This document shows positions 16,092-24,332 of a stretch of 41,462 nt of DNA, one piece after another (position 1 is the stretch's first letter; the number at the start of each line of letters is the position of its first letter). The notes beneath the pieces are model-generated. The model was not told the DNA's origin and did not search any database. It was given only the letters and a program-made list of their open reading frames with translations. The DNA is taken from assembly GCA_021738485.1 (NCBI GenBank), contig JAIPBX010000017.1, positions 1-41,462 of the forward strand. Direction: 5' to 3'. A program made the position numbers and the translations under genes. The DNA is from Bacteroidales bacterium. Its GTDB lineage: Bacteria; Bacteroidota; Bacteroidia; Bacteroidales; JAIPAH01.

Positions 16092-16373
16092 ATGAACATT
16101 TACGTAGGGAATCTTCACTATGATTTAAGTGAAGACCAATTAAGAGAAATTTTTGAAGACTTCGGTACTGTCAACTCTGTAAAAATTATTACCGATAAGT
16201 TCTCAGGAAAAAGCAAGGGTTTTGGTTTCGTTGAAATGGCAGATGATACGGAAGCAAATCAAGCAATGGAAGAACTCAATGACGCCGAAGTCAAAGGACG
16301 CAGTATGCGAGTAAATCAAGCCCGCGAGCGTACAGACAACCGGCGAAGCAATGATCGCCAACAGCGCTACTAA
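16092..16373 (+). CDS. RRM-domain RNA-binding protein
   Basis: NIYVGNLHYDLSEDQLREIFEDFGTVNSVKIITDKFSGKSKGFGFVEM; RNP2 and RNP1 motifs. Confidence 0.95.
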   Translation: MNIYVGNLHYDLSEDQLREIFEDFGTVNSVKIITDKFSGKSKGFGFVEMADDTEANQAMEELNDAEVKGRSMRVNQARERTDNRRSNDRQQRY

Positions 16374-16384
16374 ACTCCTATTTT

Positions 16385-16582
16385 ATGAAAGGCTCAGTAA
16401 AGTGGTATAATGACATCAAAGGTTATGGTTTCATCAAGAAAGATGACGGCCAGGATATCTTTGTGCACCGCTCAGGCCTCGAAAAATCTTTCCAGGTTTT
16501 ACAACCCGGTCAGGAAGTAGAGTTTGAGATTAAGCAGGGTGATAAAGGCCCTGTGGCGATAAATGTTGTCCAGCTGGATTAA
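16385..16582 (+). CDS. Cold-shock domain protein
   Basis: MKGSVKWYNDIKGYGFIKKDDGQDIFVHRSGL...VEFEIKQGDKGPVAINV. Confidence 0.95.
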   Translation: MKGSVKWYNDIKGYGFIKKDDGQDIFVHRSGLEKSFQVLQPGQEVEFEIKQGDKGPVAINVVQLD

Positions 16583-17901: not shown

Positions 17902-18771
17902 TTACTGCAAAATCTGCATCATCAGTGCCGAACACTTATCATTAAACCGTTTCATCTCATTGTGCCCGGCAATTTCGGCCAGGTGGGCGGCCCTTTCCAT
18001 TCCGCCGAAATAGGATTTATAGAAAACACCGAATCCGGCGATGTAGGCTGTAAAATAGTATTTATACCACAACTGGTGGATGGCTACTCCGGCAGCAGCC
18101 CCGTTAAGGAGAAAACTGGCGGCTCCTTCCCACGGATGTCCGGCGTAGACATGCCCGGCTCCGGGAATAAAGCGAGAGAGGTTTCTTGCTTTTTCTTCCC
18201 TATAGGTTTTGGGGATATGATCTTCGGCGTAAAGAGTATACACGCTGTCTTTCCAAAGCACGGATTTCGCAGAGTCTGCAGTAACAGAGTCTACCAGCGA
18301 GAGAAACGTTGCTTTGGCCTCTTTCCATTTTCGGGAATGATTCAGGATAATAATTTCCAAAGGGATCATTGAAGGACTGAGCTGCTGAGAATACCTGTTT
18401 TCTATGCGACGGAAGTTCCATAAGGCTACCTCATGTTTATCCGTCAAAAGGAGGTTAAAAGCTTTTTCATACAAAATCCGTGCTTTCATCGAGTCTGCCA
18501 TACTAAACAAAGGGATGCGGTCCAGTTCGGCAAGAGCATCATCGTAACGGTTGAGGTAGCGGTAGGAGAGTGCTTTGCGGAAGCGAGCTTCATTCATTTT
18601 ATCCCGCCCGGTTTCGAGATACATCGTCCGCTCATACTCAATGGATGCTTCAAACCAATGACCGGCATCGAAAAGGCTGTCGGCCTTTTGCAATGGTTTA
18701 AGCTGTGCGTTCACCTCAGTTAAAAACATTCCGCAAAGGAATGTGAAGATGAAAAAGGATTTTGTTGTCAT
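17902..18771 (-). CDS. TPR-like protein with C-terminal PGAGHVYAG membrane-type region
   Basis: Signal peptide MTTKSFFIFTFLCGMFLTEVNAQ; solenoid-like repeats; LSRFIPGAGHVYAGHPWEGAASFLLNGAAAGVAI; overlaps upstream gene by 56 bp. Confidence 0.75.
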   Translation of the reverse strand: MTTKSFFIFTFLCGMFLTEVNAQLKPLQKADSLFDAGHWFEASIEYERTMYLETGRDKMNEARFRKALSYRYLNRYDDALAELDRIPLFSMADSMKARILYEKAFNLLLTDKHEVALWNFRRIENRYSQQLSPSMIPLEIIILNHSRKWKEAKATFLSLVDSVTADSAKSVLWKDSVYTLYAEDHIPKTYREEKARNLSRFIPGAGHVYAGHPWEGAASFLLNGAAAGVAIHQLWYKYYFTAYIAGFGVFYKSYFGGMERAAHLAEIAGHNEMKRFNDKCSALMMQILQ

Positions 18772-19567
18772 ACTCTTTTTGAAATTCGTTTTCCGTGATT
18801 TTTACCGTCATTACCGTTCCATGGATATTTCCTGCATAAAAGGCGGAAAACACCGTTGCGAAAAACAGTGTTTTAAAATCTTTCCAGCCGTTTTTGCGAT
18901 AGTTCTCCCATGTTACAAAACCCATGCCTCCCACAGTAAGAAATGAAGAGATGCCCTGACCGGTTTTTCCGGCATATATTTTCCCGCTACCCGGTACTAA
19001 TGCCGACATCATTCCGGCTACCCAGGGTGATTTTTTGTTATGGGCTTTCAGCTTTTGGGCGTAACGTTCCATATTACCGGAAGCTTTGGCAATAGGATAG
19101 TAGGAGGTGTCCACCTGATCAAATTGTTGATCAAATGCCTTATAATCTCTTTGCAGCAAAGCAATTCCCGATTTTTCAAAATGTTTTAGATTTTGAAGAT
19201 TATCATCTGTGGTTTTGATATTCTCAAGGGTCTCCAGGGCTTTTTTATAATTTGTAAGATGGGCGTGATTGTAGGCCGCAAAAAAACGGGATTTGTGATA
19301 AAAAGGACTCGGAGAAGACACAAGCTTTAATGCATGGGCCGATCGTTTTAGTTCTTTCAGGGAATACAGACTCCAGCCTTTCATATAATTGAGGCTGTCC
19401 TGGAGGCGTGGGGAAGCATTTTTATATTCCGCCTCATCCAACAGATGAACTACCTCCTTGTGATATTCCCGGTTCATAAGGTGTTCGATGAATCCGGCAT
19501 CCGGACTTTTTTGCCCAAAACCAATTATCATTAGAAACACAAAAAATGGGGTGAGCACGTATCTCAT
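18716..19567 (-). CDS. TPR-like protein with C-terminal PGSGKIYAG membrane-type region, paralogous to downstream gene
   Basis: MRYVLTPFFVFLMIIGFGQ signal peptide; SALVPGSGKIYAGKTGQGISSFLTVGGMGFVTW; 4-bp overlap with the YidD-domain gene. Confidence 0.75.
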   Translation of the reverse strand: MRYVLTPFFVFLMIIGFGQKSPDAGFIEHLMNREYHKEVVHLLDEAEYKNASPRLQDSLNYMKGWSLYSLKELKRSAHALKLVSSPSPFYHKSRFFAAYNHAHLTNYKKALETLENIKTTDDNLQNLKHFEKSGIALLQRDYKAFDQQFDQVDTSYYPIAKASGNMERYAQKLKAHNKKSPWVAGMMSALVPGSGKIYAGKTGQGISSFLTVGGMGFVTWENYRKNGWKDFKTLFFATVFSAFYAGNIHGTVMTVKITENEFQKEYDNKILFHLHIPLRNVFN

Positions 19568-20025
19568 CGGTATAGTTTAACGGGGTCGTTAGATTTTTGA
19601 GTGGAATCGCTAATAGTGAGTGGATGGATATCCAAACCGGCAACTTTGTTGCAACGAGTAAGGCGATCCGAGGCAAGCATAATCCCTTTTACAAACCCAT
19701 ACTCTGCAATAGCCCTTTTACCAAACTGCGAACAAGAGGGATGGTACAGGCATTTTGCCGAAAACTGCTGCGAAATACTGTTTTGGTAAATGTATAGCAA
19801 ACCTCCGAGTGTCACGCTTACAGGGTTGTACTTAACGAAAGCGTTCGTTTCTTCCTTAAAAACATATTCTCTTTCATGAAAATGCGATTTTTCATGAGTA
19901 GCCTCTTTCAAAAACTGCAGATCTTCAACGGCATCCACCCCCTGGGCCATAATTTCCGAAGAAGTAAAGACTACAGACACAAGTAAAATAAGAATCACCA
20001 GGTATTTATTCCACCACTTTTGCAT
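19564..20025 (-). CDS. yidD: YidD-domain protein with apparent N-terminal signal peptide
   Basis: YIYQNSISQQFSAKCLYHPSCSQFGKRAIAEYGFVKGIMLASDRLTRCN matches YidD core; N-terminus MQKWWNKYLVILILLVSVVFTSSEIMAQ. Confidence 0.85.
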   Translation of the reverse strand: MQKWWNKYLVILILLVSVVFTSSEIMAQGVDAVEDLQFLKEATHEKSHFHEREYVFKEETNAFVKYNPVSVTLGGLLYIYQNSISQQFSAKCLYHPSCSQFGKRAIAEYGFVKGIMLASDRLTRCNKVAGLDIHPLTISDSTQKSNDPVKLYR

Positions 20026-20713
20026 TGTCAGGGATTTCGAAGTTTAGATAATAGGGATTCACTTCATCATTTAACTTGATATCCGAATATTTCGTCCGTC
20101 TAACAGTGGAGTCATTTTCGTTCTGATAGCTAATTTCTGTTATTCTTCTGGGCAACATAAATTCGGTGTGCTGATAATAGTCGCTGTAATAAATTTTTCT
20201 TAGGGTGTCCCCTTCATTATTTACATAAGCACTAAATACCGGGGCCATATCTTTATAAACCAACTCTACCTCTGCTATCATGTTTATATCAGCCGGTGAT
20301 TTCCACTTTGTAATCATATAATCGTCTTCATACTTAGTTTCTGTCATCCTGAAACCTTCCTTGCGTAATCCCAAACTTTCTGTCAGGTTGTTGATAAAGT
20401 AATGCAGCAACTCATTTTCTGACGAAAAATAAAAATTCTGTTGAATCATTACTTTGTTCTCTTCAGGATAATAAATCTTCAGCTCCCCTTCTCTGTTTGT
20501 CTTCTTAACAAACTCCTTCGGCTTGTAATGGTGTGTTACATAAATCCCCTTTTCAGGAGAATAGTAGCAGTCTGCCTTATGGGTATACTTTTTCCCATCT
20601 TTCAATGCCTGAGTGGTCATTTCGACACTTACTTGCTTTACAGACTGTGCCGGCAACAGCAGAGGAAAAGCCGCTGTAACCATACACAGAAGCGCTGTTT
20701 TAAATAAACTCAT
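20006..20713 (-). CDS. LolA-like periplasmic/outer-membrane lipoprotein-sorting-type protein
   Basis: Signal peptide MSLFKTALLCMVTAAFPLLLPAQ; LolA-like fold pattern (KADCYYSPEKGIYVTHHYKPKEFV...EGELKIYYPEENKV...); start at 20713 preferred over ORF start 20911. Confidence 0.65.
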   Translation of the reverse strand: MSLFKTALLCMVTAAFPLLLPAQSVKQVSVEMTTQALKDGKKYTHKADCYYSPEKGIYVTHHYKPKEFVKKTNREGELKIYYPEENKVMIQQNFYFSSENELLHYFINNLTESLGLRKEGFRMTETKYEDDYMITKWKSPADINMIAEVELVYKDMAPVFSAYVNNEGDTLRKIYYSDYYQHTEFMLPRRITEISYQNENDSTVRRTKYSDIKLNDEVNPYYLNFEIPDNAKVVE

Positions 20714-20735
20714 ATGATCCGGTTTAAGATTGAAA

Positions 20736-20743
20736 CAAAAATA
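20736..20743 (-). promoter_or_regulatory. Candidate -7 box for the LolA-like/YidD operon
   Basis: Minus strand TATTTTTG just upstream of the preferred start and downstream of a terminator-like structure. Confidence 0.4.
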
Positions 20744-20756
20744 AAGAAAATAAAAG

Positions 20757-20814
20757 AGAGGGTGCCCGGGCGTCCCTCTATGAACACTTACCAGGCCCAA
20801 AATATTTGGGCCTG
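20757..20814 (-). terminator. Double hairpin between the TM2 gene and the LolA-like gene
   Basis: CAGGCCCAAA-ATA-TTTGGGCCTG (20792-20814, perfect) and AGAGGG-TGCCCGGGCGT-CCCTCT (20757-20779), followed on the minus strand by a T-rich run. Confidence 0.6.
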
Positions 20815-20904
20815 ATAAGCAATTTGTTATTAATTTAAGTATTTCCTGACAACCTTGTAACACTTGCCGGTCATCCTTCCAAACATTTTCTCCCGGGTAG
20901 TTTC

Positions 20905-21315
20905 CTACCACATAAAGAAGCTCGGGTTATCCACATAGGGAGAAATATCCTCATAGTTCATAGCCAGAACGATGAGGTCTACCAGTGGAAGAATACCACC
21001 AAATCCACCACAAGTAAGGATATAACCGATACCTGTCAGAGGTTTGGTTCCAAGGTAAAACCGGTGAACACCCAGGTAACCGACAAAGAAGTCCAGAAGA
21101 ATGGCAATCATAGGATCCTTTCCTTGAACCTTTTGGGGAACGAGCATAGGTTGACCGGTTTCGGCCTCGGTAAAAATGTTGAATTGGGCTTCTTCGGCAT
21201 TCTCAAATAATACGTCTACTTTTTCCTGATCAATCGAATATTTCGAAGCGTTCGCTTGTTCAGCAAACAAAGCCGTAAATGAGAATACTACTGCAATAAG
21301 TAAGAACTTTTTCAT
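20905..21315 (-). CDS. TM2-domain protein with signal peptide
   Basis: MKKFLLIAVVFSFTALFAEQANA; DPMIAILLDFFVGYLGVHRFYLGTKPLTGIGYILTCGGFGGILPLVDLIVLAMN. Confidence 0.85.
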   Translation of the reverse strand: MKKFLLIAVVFSFTALFAEQANASKYSIDQEKVDVLFENAEEAQFNIFTEAETGQPMLVPQKVQGKDPMIAILLDFFVGYLGVHRFYLGTKPLTGIGYILTCGGFGGILPLVDLIVLAMNYEDISPYVDNPSFFMW

Positions 21316-21371: not shown

Positions 21372-22133
21372 TTATTTCCGTTTAGTATTATCCGTTAAAG
21401 CTGTCCCCCGTTGATCCTGTATCCGTTGGAAAAAAGGATTGCCGGGAAAACGATCATGAAGTATTTTTTTATATATTTTCGCCCTGGTCTTTTCCTCTGC
21501 AATATCGCAATAATATTTAAACAAAAAATATTTTCCCAGCGTACTACGCAAATAATTATTGCTCTCAGCATGGCTTTTCAGGGCCTGAATATGAATTTTC
21601 TTTTCTGAGTCGATATTGTTTTTAAACGGATTGAGGTTGTACGATGTTTCTACTAATTCAATCAGATTTACATAAAGTGAATATAAATGACCATGCAACG
21701 AGGTTGAATCCTCAGGTGGCGTTTGTTCCTCCAGTAGATTTTTGAGCTTAACATAATCAAATATGGCAGCCGGGTATTTATTTAACGCTAAATTGTAACG
21801 CAGCTTATAAGTTTGCAAAATCAATCTTTGTGTGGGATTAGCAGAGGCTTCTTTTTTCCGGCTTTCAATGTGGGATTTGAATTTATGCAGCGATTCTTTA
21901 TTCCCGTTTTCAATGGCTTGCCACCAAGCCAGCTCTATGCGGAGAAATTGTTCCGTCTGTTTTTCAAAAACCTGCGAATCAATAAGATGCCGGGCTTTTT
22001 CAAATTGAAAATTAAAAATCCCCGAAAGGATTGAATTGACCTTATCAACATTTTCGGCCTCACCCCCACTTCCGGGCTTGATAAGAAATATTATCAGAAC
22101 AATGGTAGGGAATATGGTTTTATTGAAACGCAT
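21372..22133 (-). CDS. Exported helical-repeat-like hypothetical protein
   Basis: N-terminal hydrophobic leader MRFNKTIFPTIVLIIFLIKPGSG then helix-rich TPR-like pattern; no catalytic motif recognised. Confidence 0.6.
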   Translation of the reverse strand: MRFNKTIFPTIVLIIFLIKPGSGGEAENVDKVNSILSGIFNFQFEKARHLIDSQVFEKQTEQFLRIELAWWQAIENGNKESLHKFKSHIESRKKEASANPTQRLILQTYKLRYNLALNKYPAAIFDYVKLKNLLEEQTPPEDSTSLHGHLYSLYVNLIELVETSYNLNPFKNNIDSEKKIHIQALKSHAESNNYLRSTLGKYFLFKYYCDIAEEKTRAKIYKKILHDRFPGNPFFQRIQDQRGTALTDNTKRK

Positions 22134-22300: not shown

Positions 22301-24256
22301 CTACCCTTGTTGTTGATAAGCAGGTAATGTAAAGGTGAAGCGGCTTCCTTTCCCAACTTCACTCTCCACCCAGATTTCACCGTTTTGTTTTTCAACAAAT
22401 TCCTTACAAATAATAAGTCCCAGCCCGGTACCTCTTTCGTTGTTTGTCCCTTTACGCTTATTCGTTTCGTTCACTTTAAATAATTTCATCTGGTCTTCTT
22501 CGGAAATACCCATTCCCGTGTCTGTCACCGATATTACATAATTACCGTTTTCCTCGTTGATTTCAATGACAATTTCACCTCCTTTGGGTGTATATTTTAT
22601 GGCGTTGGAAAGGAGGTTTCTAACCACGGTAGAAGTAAGGTTATAATCAGCATACACAAAAATGTCGCTGTCAACCTTAGATATTAGGTTGACGTTTTTA
22701 CCTTCGAGGTTCGTTTGCAGCAGCTTTTCACTTTCCTGAATAACTTCAGTAATATTTATTGGCTTAGGATCGAAGGCAATAGAACCGGATTGAGAGCGGG
22801 CCCATTCCATCAGGTTATGAAGCAACCTTAAAGCCTCATTTGAAGAGTAATTGAGTTTTTGAATGATATCAAGCAGCTCTTCCTTGTCATACTCATCAAA
22901 ATCCTCTTTAATCAAATCTGTGTAGGAAACCACCACACTGATAGGCGTTTTTAAATCATGGGCAATTACCCTGAAAAGGGTGTCTTTAGCCACATTTAAA
23001 TCGGTAAGCTTTTCGTTTTTATCAGCGATTTCTTCGTTTTTTTGCTGCAAATTTTTATTATAACTGGTTTTCAGACGATTGTGTCGATAAAGCAAAGAAG
23101 TCAAAACTATCAGCCCTACTATTCCGGCCGCACCGGCTATCAGTTGTTGATTTCGCCTTTTAATTCTAACTTCCTGCAGACGATTTTCTCTGGCAAGAGC
23201 TTTATTCTTCGATTCTTTCCTCTTTAGCCGCAAATAGTTTATCTTATTATCACGCTTTTCATTAAAAATGCTATCGCTGTATTTTTTATGAAGTTTATGA
23301 TACTGATAAGCCTTTTTGTAATCCCCTTTTTTGGCATAGGCTTCTGCAAGAATTTTCGTTACATTCTGCTTATCCCATTTTGCATTGACTTCTTTGGCCA
23401 GTTCATAACTACGTACACCAATGTCAATACTTTTCTCGAGGTCACCTGTCTGCTTGTATACCTTAGCCAGGCCGGCCATGGCATAACTGATCTCCCATTT
23501 ATTATCATAATCATCGGTATTAATAACCTTGGTAAGGGCCTGGATAGCTTTTTCATACTTCCCCATATCCGCATAAACATTACCCATTAAATTTAACATG
23601 CGAAGGCCTTCATTGGGCTTTCCCGCTTCATTTTTAAACTCAAGTGCCTTTTGAGCATGTAGTAAAGCACTATCGTATTTTTTCAGAGAATAGTATGATA
23701 TGCCCATATTAAAATGGTTATGCGATAGTAAATTTGTGTCAGCGATTTGTTTAGCTATTTCCAGGGATTTTTGATGATTCCGGATAGATGGACGGTAATG
23801 CTCTTGCATGTTTTGAATCAGACCGATATTATTCAAACCTATGGCGATACCCCATTGGTTGTCATTTTTTTCCCATATATCAATGGCTTCCATAAAATTC
23901 TCCATAGCATAATCATATTCTCCTTCAACATATTTCACGTATCCTATGCCCCGATACGAAGTAGCAACCATGTTGGGAAGATCACTCTCACGGGCGATTT
24001 TGAGTGCTTTATTATAATAGTAAATTGCAGAATCCGCATTGGAAAATCTTAATTCATCCCCAATCCTGTTAAGTAATTTTGCTTTCTCCCGCGCGTCGGT
24101 ATCTTTTTTAATCTCTTGCCATTGATAAATAAGAGAATCCAAAGAGTTTTGGGCTTGGGCCCAGGAAAAAGGAACAATCATTAGGACAAACAGCAGCATA
24201 AAAACCCCCGCTGAAAAGCAATACCTTAGATTATAATGTTTCAAATAAGTTCGCAT
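22301..24256 (-). CDS. TPR-containing sensor histidine kinase
   Basis: N-terminal TPR repeats, TM segment, DHp FRVIAHDLKTPISVVVSYTDL, catalytic NLLSNAIKYTPKGG / DTGMGIS / GTGLGL; start MRTYLKHYN at 24256 preferred. Confidence 0.9.
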   Translation of the reverse strand: MRTYLKHYNLRYCFSAGVFMLLFVLMIVPFSWAQAQNSLDSLIYQWQEIKKDTDAREKAKLLNRIGDELRFSNADSAIYYYNKALKIARESDLPNMVATSYRGIGYVKYVEGEYDYAMENFMEAIDIWEKNDNQWGIAIGLNNIGLIQNMQEHYRPSIRNHQKSLEIAKQIADTNLLSHNHFNMGISYYSLKKYDSALLHAQKALEFKNEAGKPNEGLRMLNLMGNVYADMGKYEKAIQALTKVINTDDYDNKWEISYAMAGLAKVYKQTGDLEKSIDIGVRSYELAKEVNAKWDKQNVTKILAEAYAKKGDYKKAYQYHKLHKKYSDSIFNEKRDNKINYLRLKRKESKNKALARENRLQEVRIKRRNQQLIAGAAGIVGLIVLTSLLYRHNRLKTSYNKNLQQKNEEIADKNEKLTDLNVAKDTLFRVIAHDLKTPISVVVSYTDLIKEDFDEYDKEELLDIIQKLNYSSNEALRLLHNLMEWARSQSGSIAFDPKPINITEVIQESEKLLQTNLEGKNVNLISKVDSDIFVYADYNLTSTVVRNLLSNAIKYTPKGGEIVIEINEENGNYVISVTDTGMGISEEDQMKLFKVNETNKRKGTNNERGTGLGLIICKEFVEKQNGEIWVESEVGKGSRFTFTLPAYQQQG

Positions 24257-24332
24257 CTTATATGTTTCTCGACCTGTCATGAGATCACAATTACTATTTA
24301 ATAATATTACAAAAACCACGAAAACTCGTCAA

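Follow-up and report, generated by a model that had tools for sequence, protein, structure and literature searches.

The cassette described here encodes a separate lineage of YidD that carries a predicted export signal and is inherited together with, or fused to, a putative inner-membrane TPR scaffold, and alongside these a protein modelled with a LolA fold. That the parts of the cassette reside in the envelope and are coupled to one another is well supported, and we tentatively propose, with somewhat less than even confidence, that they form an inner-membrane-anchored periplasmic complex which assists a LolA-type carrier of lipids or lipidated proteins. The window, by which we mean the whole 41,462-nt stretch of DNA analysed, contains the following features.

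17902..18771, minus strand: TPRb (P0004, 289 aa), a paralogue of TPRa with like architecture
18716..19567, minus strand: TPRa (P0003, 283 aa), with a signal peptide, a TPR domain and a C-terminal TM2/DUF5683-like membrane domain
19564..20025, minus strand: exported YidD-domain protein (P0002, 153 aa; Pfam YidD), the second YidD of the genome
20006..20713, minus strand: exported protein with a predicted LolA/LolB fold (P0001, 235 aa), from an AlphaFold2 model and LolA_like matches in relatives
20735..20742, minus strand: TATTTTTG, a weak Bacteroidota -7-like box, TAnnTTTG being frequent in the window
20787..20819, minus strand: strong inverted repeat, the probable terminator of the TM2 gene (P0005)
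20905..21315, minus strand: TM2-domain exported or membrane protein (P0005, 136 aa; Pfam TM2), a usual neighbour of the cassette
21372..22133, minus strand: exported protein without a Pfam match (P0006), an occasional satellite, adjoining the cassette or a few genes away in about ten loci

The four minus-strand genes from the LolA-like protein to TPRb overlap by 20 bp (20025/20006), 4 bp (19567/19564) and 56 bp (18771/18716), just as the original prediction had it; the four-gene module it described is real but too narrow, as the cassette also takes in P0005 and, less often, P0006 (21372-22133). The double hairpin and the box that had been pointed out 5′ of the first gene are all present: the stem CTTATCAGGCCC...GGGCCTGGTAAG forms the inverted repeat at 20819-20787, between the P0005 gene and the LolA-like gene, a second, weaker hairpin with a T-rich tail lies at 20779-20757, and TATTTTTG stands at 20742-20735, 22 nt before the ATG of the LolA-like gene. 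As a promoter, however, the box is a weak call, since the window has 45 occurrences of TAnnTTTG (21+24 over both strands), and the first hairpin more probably ends the upstream TM2 gene. Upstream of the cassette there is a gene for a TPR-containing sensor histidine kinase (22301-24319), and kinase-like genes are also found 5′ of the cassette in loci L057, L093 and L108. Elsewhere in the window, on the plus strand, the gene of a small RRM-type RNA-binding protein (16092-16373) and a cold-shock-like gene (16385-16582) lie 11 bp apart.

Of 58 genomes, chiefly of other families within the same order, 18 have relatives of TPRa (P0003), mostly as part of a YidD-TPRa-TPRb cluster. When 85,462 species genomes were scanned by profile, 292 relatives were confirmed, and gene order was counted in the best 80 of these, taken as named loci and reaching down to about 30% identity; by their record names they come from Bacteroidales, from the Marinilabiliales-type genera Breznakibacter, Ancylomarina and Anaerophaga, and also from Spirosoma, Runella, Flectobacillus, Siphonobacter, Chitinophagales, Crocinitomicaceae and MAGs labelled Balneolales. 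Among these best 80 of the 292 relatives the order LolA-YidD-TPRa-TPRb is near-invariant, TPRb being present in 79, TPRa in 73, YidD in 72 and LolA in 68, with several of the shortfalls due to contig ends or ORF calling. The TM2 gene flanks the cassette in 57 of the 80 named loci: those of the Bacteroidales type have it upstream and on the same strand, those of Cytophagales and Chitinophagales downstream and on the other strand. Members of the P0006 family adjoin the cassette or lie a few genes away in some ten loci, and in L117 the family is fused to TPRb, while the genes beyond the cassette vary from locus to locus. A neighbourhood that was not conserved would have counted against the original prediction; the comparison of the relatives' loci shows that it is strongly conserved, as a block of four to six genes that recurs in Bacteroidota and in groups sister to them.

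In three loci (L093, L096 and L117) two paralogous cassettes, one for each YidD class, lie next to each other on the same contig. The gene that precedes the LolA-like gene in class II cassettes, where the TM2 gene otherwise stands, encodes a small signal-peptide protein that contains two hydrophobic segments (L071:4042-4488, L028:179-616, L021:1949-2440 and L063:3859-4257), and the two of these that were scanned matched no Pfam family. Two distant lineages encode a PEGA-domain lipoprotein beside the YidD/TPR core, in the usual place of the LolA-like gene (L153:1154-1624 and L160:3665-4153). Several Cytophagales or Chitinophaga loci have genes for small exported putative outer-membrane barrels (176-256 aa) just 5′ of the LolA-like gene (L087, L090, L098, L100, L110, L111, L114 and L151; L091, L105 and L120).

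YidD is regarded as a small universal helper of membrane-protein insertion that acts on the cytoplasmic side. P0002 clearly matches this family, both in Pfam (PF01809, E=4.5e-17, 62 bits against a curated cut-off of 27) and in TIGR00278 (60.2 bits, cut-off 40), and yet it departs from the location expected of YidD, on the cytoplasmic side and between rnpA and yidC, as it has a hydrophobic, signal-peptide-like N-terminus ending in MAQ and is encoded in an operon with the LolA-like and TPR proteins. The canonical YidD, of 92 aa, is encoded directly after rnpA on another contig (C18) of the same genome, so the reservation attached to the original prediction, that P0002 would be the housekeeping copy if a canonical yidD were absent, no longer applies. 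In a tree of 99 YidD domains, built on about 65 residues, all 14 of the 14 canonical copies are set apart from all module copies by a long branch with a support of 0.977. YidD profile matches are found in 297 of 299 phylum-wide genomes, cassette or not, and a sequence search of the PDB returned no relatives of the exported YidD.

The second YidD and TPRa are strongly coupled. In the 299 phylum-wide genomes, 36 have at least two YidD matches, and 33 of these 36 have TPRa compared to five of the 263 others (Fisher p=4e-35; the 33/36 and 5/263 are manual counts, over genomes that are not independent of one another); the five exceptions, with a TPRa match and no second YidD, are weak matches to the C-terminal domain only. 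The two proteins are even encoded as a single ORF in two rumen Bacteroidales MAGs (L121 and L123), in another family of the same order (L031) and in another class (L153), a count that excludes L097 and L102, with an out-of-frame upstream stretch in a long TPRa ORF, and L127, with masked bases. The fusions in L121, L123 and L031 have a single N-terminal hydrophobic segment and the next one only at the C-terminal membrane domain. Because no hydrophobic segment separates them, the YidD and TPR domains are predicted to lie on the same side, and this would be the exported side provided that the signal works. In the model of the fusion the linker has a pLDDT below 50 and the pTM is 0.65, which leaves the position of YidD relative to the TPR domain uncertain, and Foldseek returned only TPR matches (E >0.02), with no solved match for the YidD fold.

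Every component of the cassette seems to be exported. Judged by hydropathy, as were all signal peptides and membrane spans, the N-terminus is hydrophobic in 51 of 52 YidD, 37 of 37 LolA-like, 61 of 62 TPRa, 51 of 54 TPRb and 48 of 49 TM2 proteins. Together with the single-signal YidD-TPRa fusions, these signal-peptide-like N-termini give good support to the envelope module and periplasmic YidD domain that had been suggested at the outset.

TPRa and TPRb are related over their whole length (hhalign of the two profiles: probability 99.8, E=4.5e-29, 266 columns), so that the likeness first noticed at their C-termini is part of a full-length paralogy. The N-terminal half of both is TPR, with a profile match to the consensus TPR at E=8e-16, and the C-terminal half consists of helices in the model and gives sub-threshold Pfam matches to TM2/DUF5683 (20.7 bits for TPRa against PF05154, under the cut-off of 27.9). 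The motif PGxGxxYAG had been taken for a solenoid, which has to be corrected: it belongs to this membrane domain of the TM2/DUF5683 kind, the solenoid being formed by the TPR half at the N-terminus. The neighbouring P0005, a signal-peptide protein, is a TM2 family member by its match to PF05154 (E=2e-14, 54 bits versus the cut-off of 27.9).

The LolA-like nature of P0001 is visible in its predicted structure. Searched with HMMs by itself, the protein gives no significant Pfam match and none to the LolA family, whereas 16 of 30 relatives match LolA_like (PF17131, best 4e-5). The AlphaFold2 model of P0001, made with 30 sequences (pLDDT 93.2, pTM 0.83), matches crystal structures of LolA and LolB in Foldseek: Pseudomonas aeruginosa LolA with E=1.1e-11 and a probability of 1.00, and Porphyromonas gingivalis LolA3 (9TP6) and LolB (9TPM) with TM-scores of 0.58 and 0.61. 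P0001, whose N-terminus is hydrophobic, is thus modelled as a LolA/LolB-type half-barrel; the LolA-like label given to it earlier holds for the fold, on which the protein's own HMM search is silent. LolA and LolB are told apart by an arginine in the β2-β3 loop of LolA and by the leucine in the β3-β4 loop and the lipobox of LolB (PMC13103446). The β2-β3 loop of P0001 reads SPEKG (52-56) and the family alignment has no conserved arginine there; likewise, 37 relatives have no lipobox, and the β3-β4 loop of P0001, PKE (65-67), is without an exposed leucine. A separate housekeeping LolA (PF03548, E=3.4e-10) is encoded in the same genome, on contig C140, beside an FtsK-like ORF.

The variants of the cassette give some indication of how it was assembled. 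In two distant lineages (L154 and L160) YidD stands with a single TPR-TM2 gene and without LolA; the LolA-like protein may therefore be an addition. This points to an ancestral two-gene core, followed by the duplication into TPRa and TPRb and the joining of the LolA-like protein, and we infer that history ran in this direction. YidD does not seem to be indispensable, because some rumen Bacteroidales have lost it or its third cysteine: L131 and L149 keep the cassette but have no recognisable YidD beside TPRa; in the YidD of L136, L143 and L146 the third cysteine is missing.

How could such a set of proteins work? We tentatively propose that TPRa and TPRb are anchored in the inner membrane via their C-terminal domains and display their TPR scaffolds in the periplasm, that YidD docks on TPRa at the membrane surface, the two being sometimes one protein, and that the LolA-like protein takes up or gives off an acylated cargo (a lipid or a lipoprotein) at the scaffold and ferries it across the periplasm. 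YidD would then be a membrane-surface helper in the hand-over of acyl or hydrophobic groups rather than the cytoplasmic helper of YidC. In the earlier idea of an envelope assembly or lipoprotein-handling module, the envelope part is well supported; lipoprotein handling, which the LolA fold suggests, is putative, and so are the cargo and the direction of transport. It is possible, though doubtful, that the cassette is a lipid or lipoprotein trafficking machine, already present in the ancestor of Bacteroidota and its sister groups, with a YidD domain that has been relocated to the periplasmic side, is docked on or fused to an inner-membrane TPR-TM2 scaffold and works with a LolA-type carrier of its own. 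Flavobacterium johnsoniae is viable without all five of its LolA/LolB proteins and still exposes a surface lipoprotein (PMC11885536), and since it survives their loss, other lipoprotein routes exist in Bacteroidota (PMC11885536). If our proposal is true, the cassette is one candidate for the LolA/LolB-independent routes which this work implies.

Alternatively, the cassette might help to assemble, in the periplasm, small membrane hairpin proteins or outer-membrane barrels, with YidD and the TPR proteins as chaperones, TPRb in a BamD-like part and the LolA-like protein as an accessory. The link of YidD to membrane protein insertion (PMC8082313) fits this, as do the genes of small putative outer-membrane barrels immediately 5′ of the cassette in Cytophagales/Chitinophaga loci and a weak match of TPRb to BamD (TIGR03302, E=9e-4); but the latter scores 18.7 bits against a curated cut-off of 81.4 and may reflect mere TPR likeness, and the barrel genes are not constant neighbours, so that we consider this function unlikely. 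An envelope sensor is improbable as well: here an RseB-like LolA-fold protein would sense mislocalised lipoproteins or lipid and signal via the TPR-TM2 proteins, in keeping with a Foldseek match of the P0001 model to RseB (E of about 2.5e-6) and with the sensor-kinase-like genes that precede the cassette in the window as in a few loci. Against it, the RseB TM-scores are about 0.3, compared to 0.5-0.6 for LolA/LolB, P0001 is without the second domain of RseB, and neither an anti-sigma factor nor a sigma factor nor a protease is a constant neighbour, the upstream genes being variable. An accessory role in type IX secretion or gliding motility is very hard to maintain: GldL is present in the phylum and in the window's own genome, but the cassette does not follow its distribution, as among the 299 genomes it occurs in only one of about 70 same-class genomes with GldL, and about 30 cassette genomes of other classes have no GldL match over the cut-off, which a diverged GldL may escape. 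A defence system was rejected, the five proteins having no match in PADLOC. That P0002 is a plain housekeeping YidD in an odd location, as its Pfam match alone would permit, has next to no chance of being right and was rejected, given the separate canonical rnpA-yidD copy on another contig, the YidD matches in nearly all genomes regardless of the cassette and the distance of module YidDs from canonical copies in the tree.

Periplasmic carriage of lipid or lipidated protein by a LolA-type protein on a membrane-anchored scaffold is thus the reading we prefer. The parts of the cassette are known, but we came upon no account of them as a set or of what the set does; a full-text search of openly accessible journal articles found no paper on YidD together with “TM2 domain”, no relevant paper on a periplasmic YidD paralogue and none that names the module, as the original prediction had allowed might exist, and the two recent papers on Bacteroidota LolA/LolB mention neither YidD nor TM2. 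Such an absence of papers is no proof that the cassette is undescribed. It offers a genetic handle on two questions, the role of the YidD domain and the routes by which lipids and lipoproteins reach the outer membrane in Bacteroidota.

Each component resembles a known system and departs from it. P0001 shares the predicted half-barrel fold with LolA/LolB, including P. gingivalis LolA3 and LolB, and like LolA is soluble and apparently exported, whereas it has no sequence match to P. gingivalis LolA3 or LolB, even at the profile level, and its gene is found with those of YidD and TPR-TM2 proteins and not with ftsK or flexirubin genes. The C-terminal domain of TPRa and TPRb, like the adjacent P0005, resembles TM2 (PF05154) and DUF5683 (PF18935) proteins, from which TPRa and TPRb differ by an additional signal peptide and a TPR domain predicted to be periplasmic, their domain matches being under the curated cut-off. 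With BamD/YfiO-like proteins they have in common that they are exported TPR proteins, but the match, that of TPRb, is far under the cut-off, they are without a lipobox and they possess a C-terminal membrane domain. The YidD of the cassette, finally, shares with canonical YidD (PF01809/TIGR00278) the motif C-x-Y/F-x3-C-S and the RxxRC cysteine, each found in 67 of 71 module copies. It differs in a signal-peptide-like N-terminus of about 25 aa plus a long spacer, in DRxxRC in most copies where canonical YidD has KRxxRC, and in lacking the canonical PWGGxGxDPVP tail; compared to the canonical rnpA-yidD-yidC locus it has other neighbours, and it forms a clade of its own.
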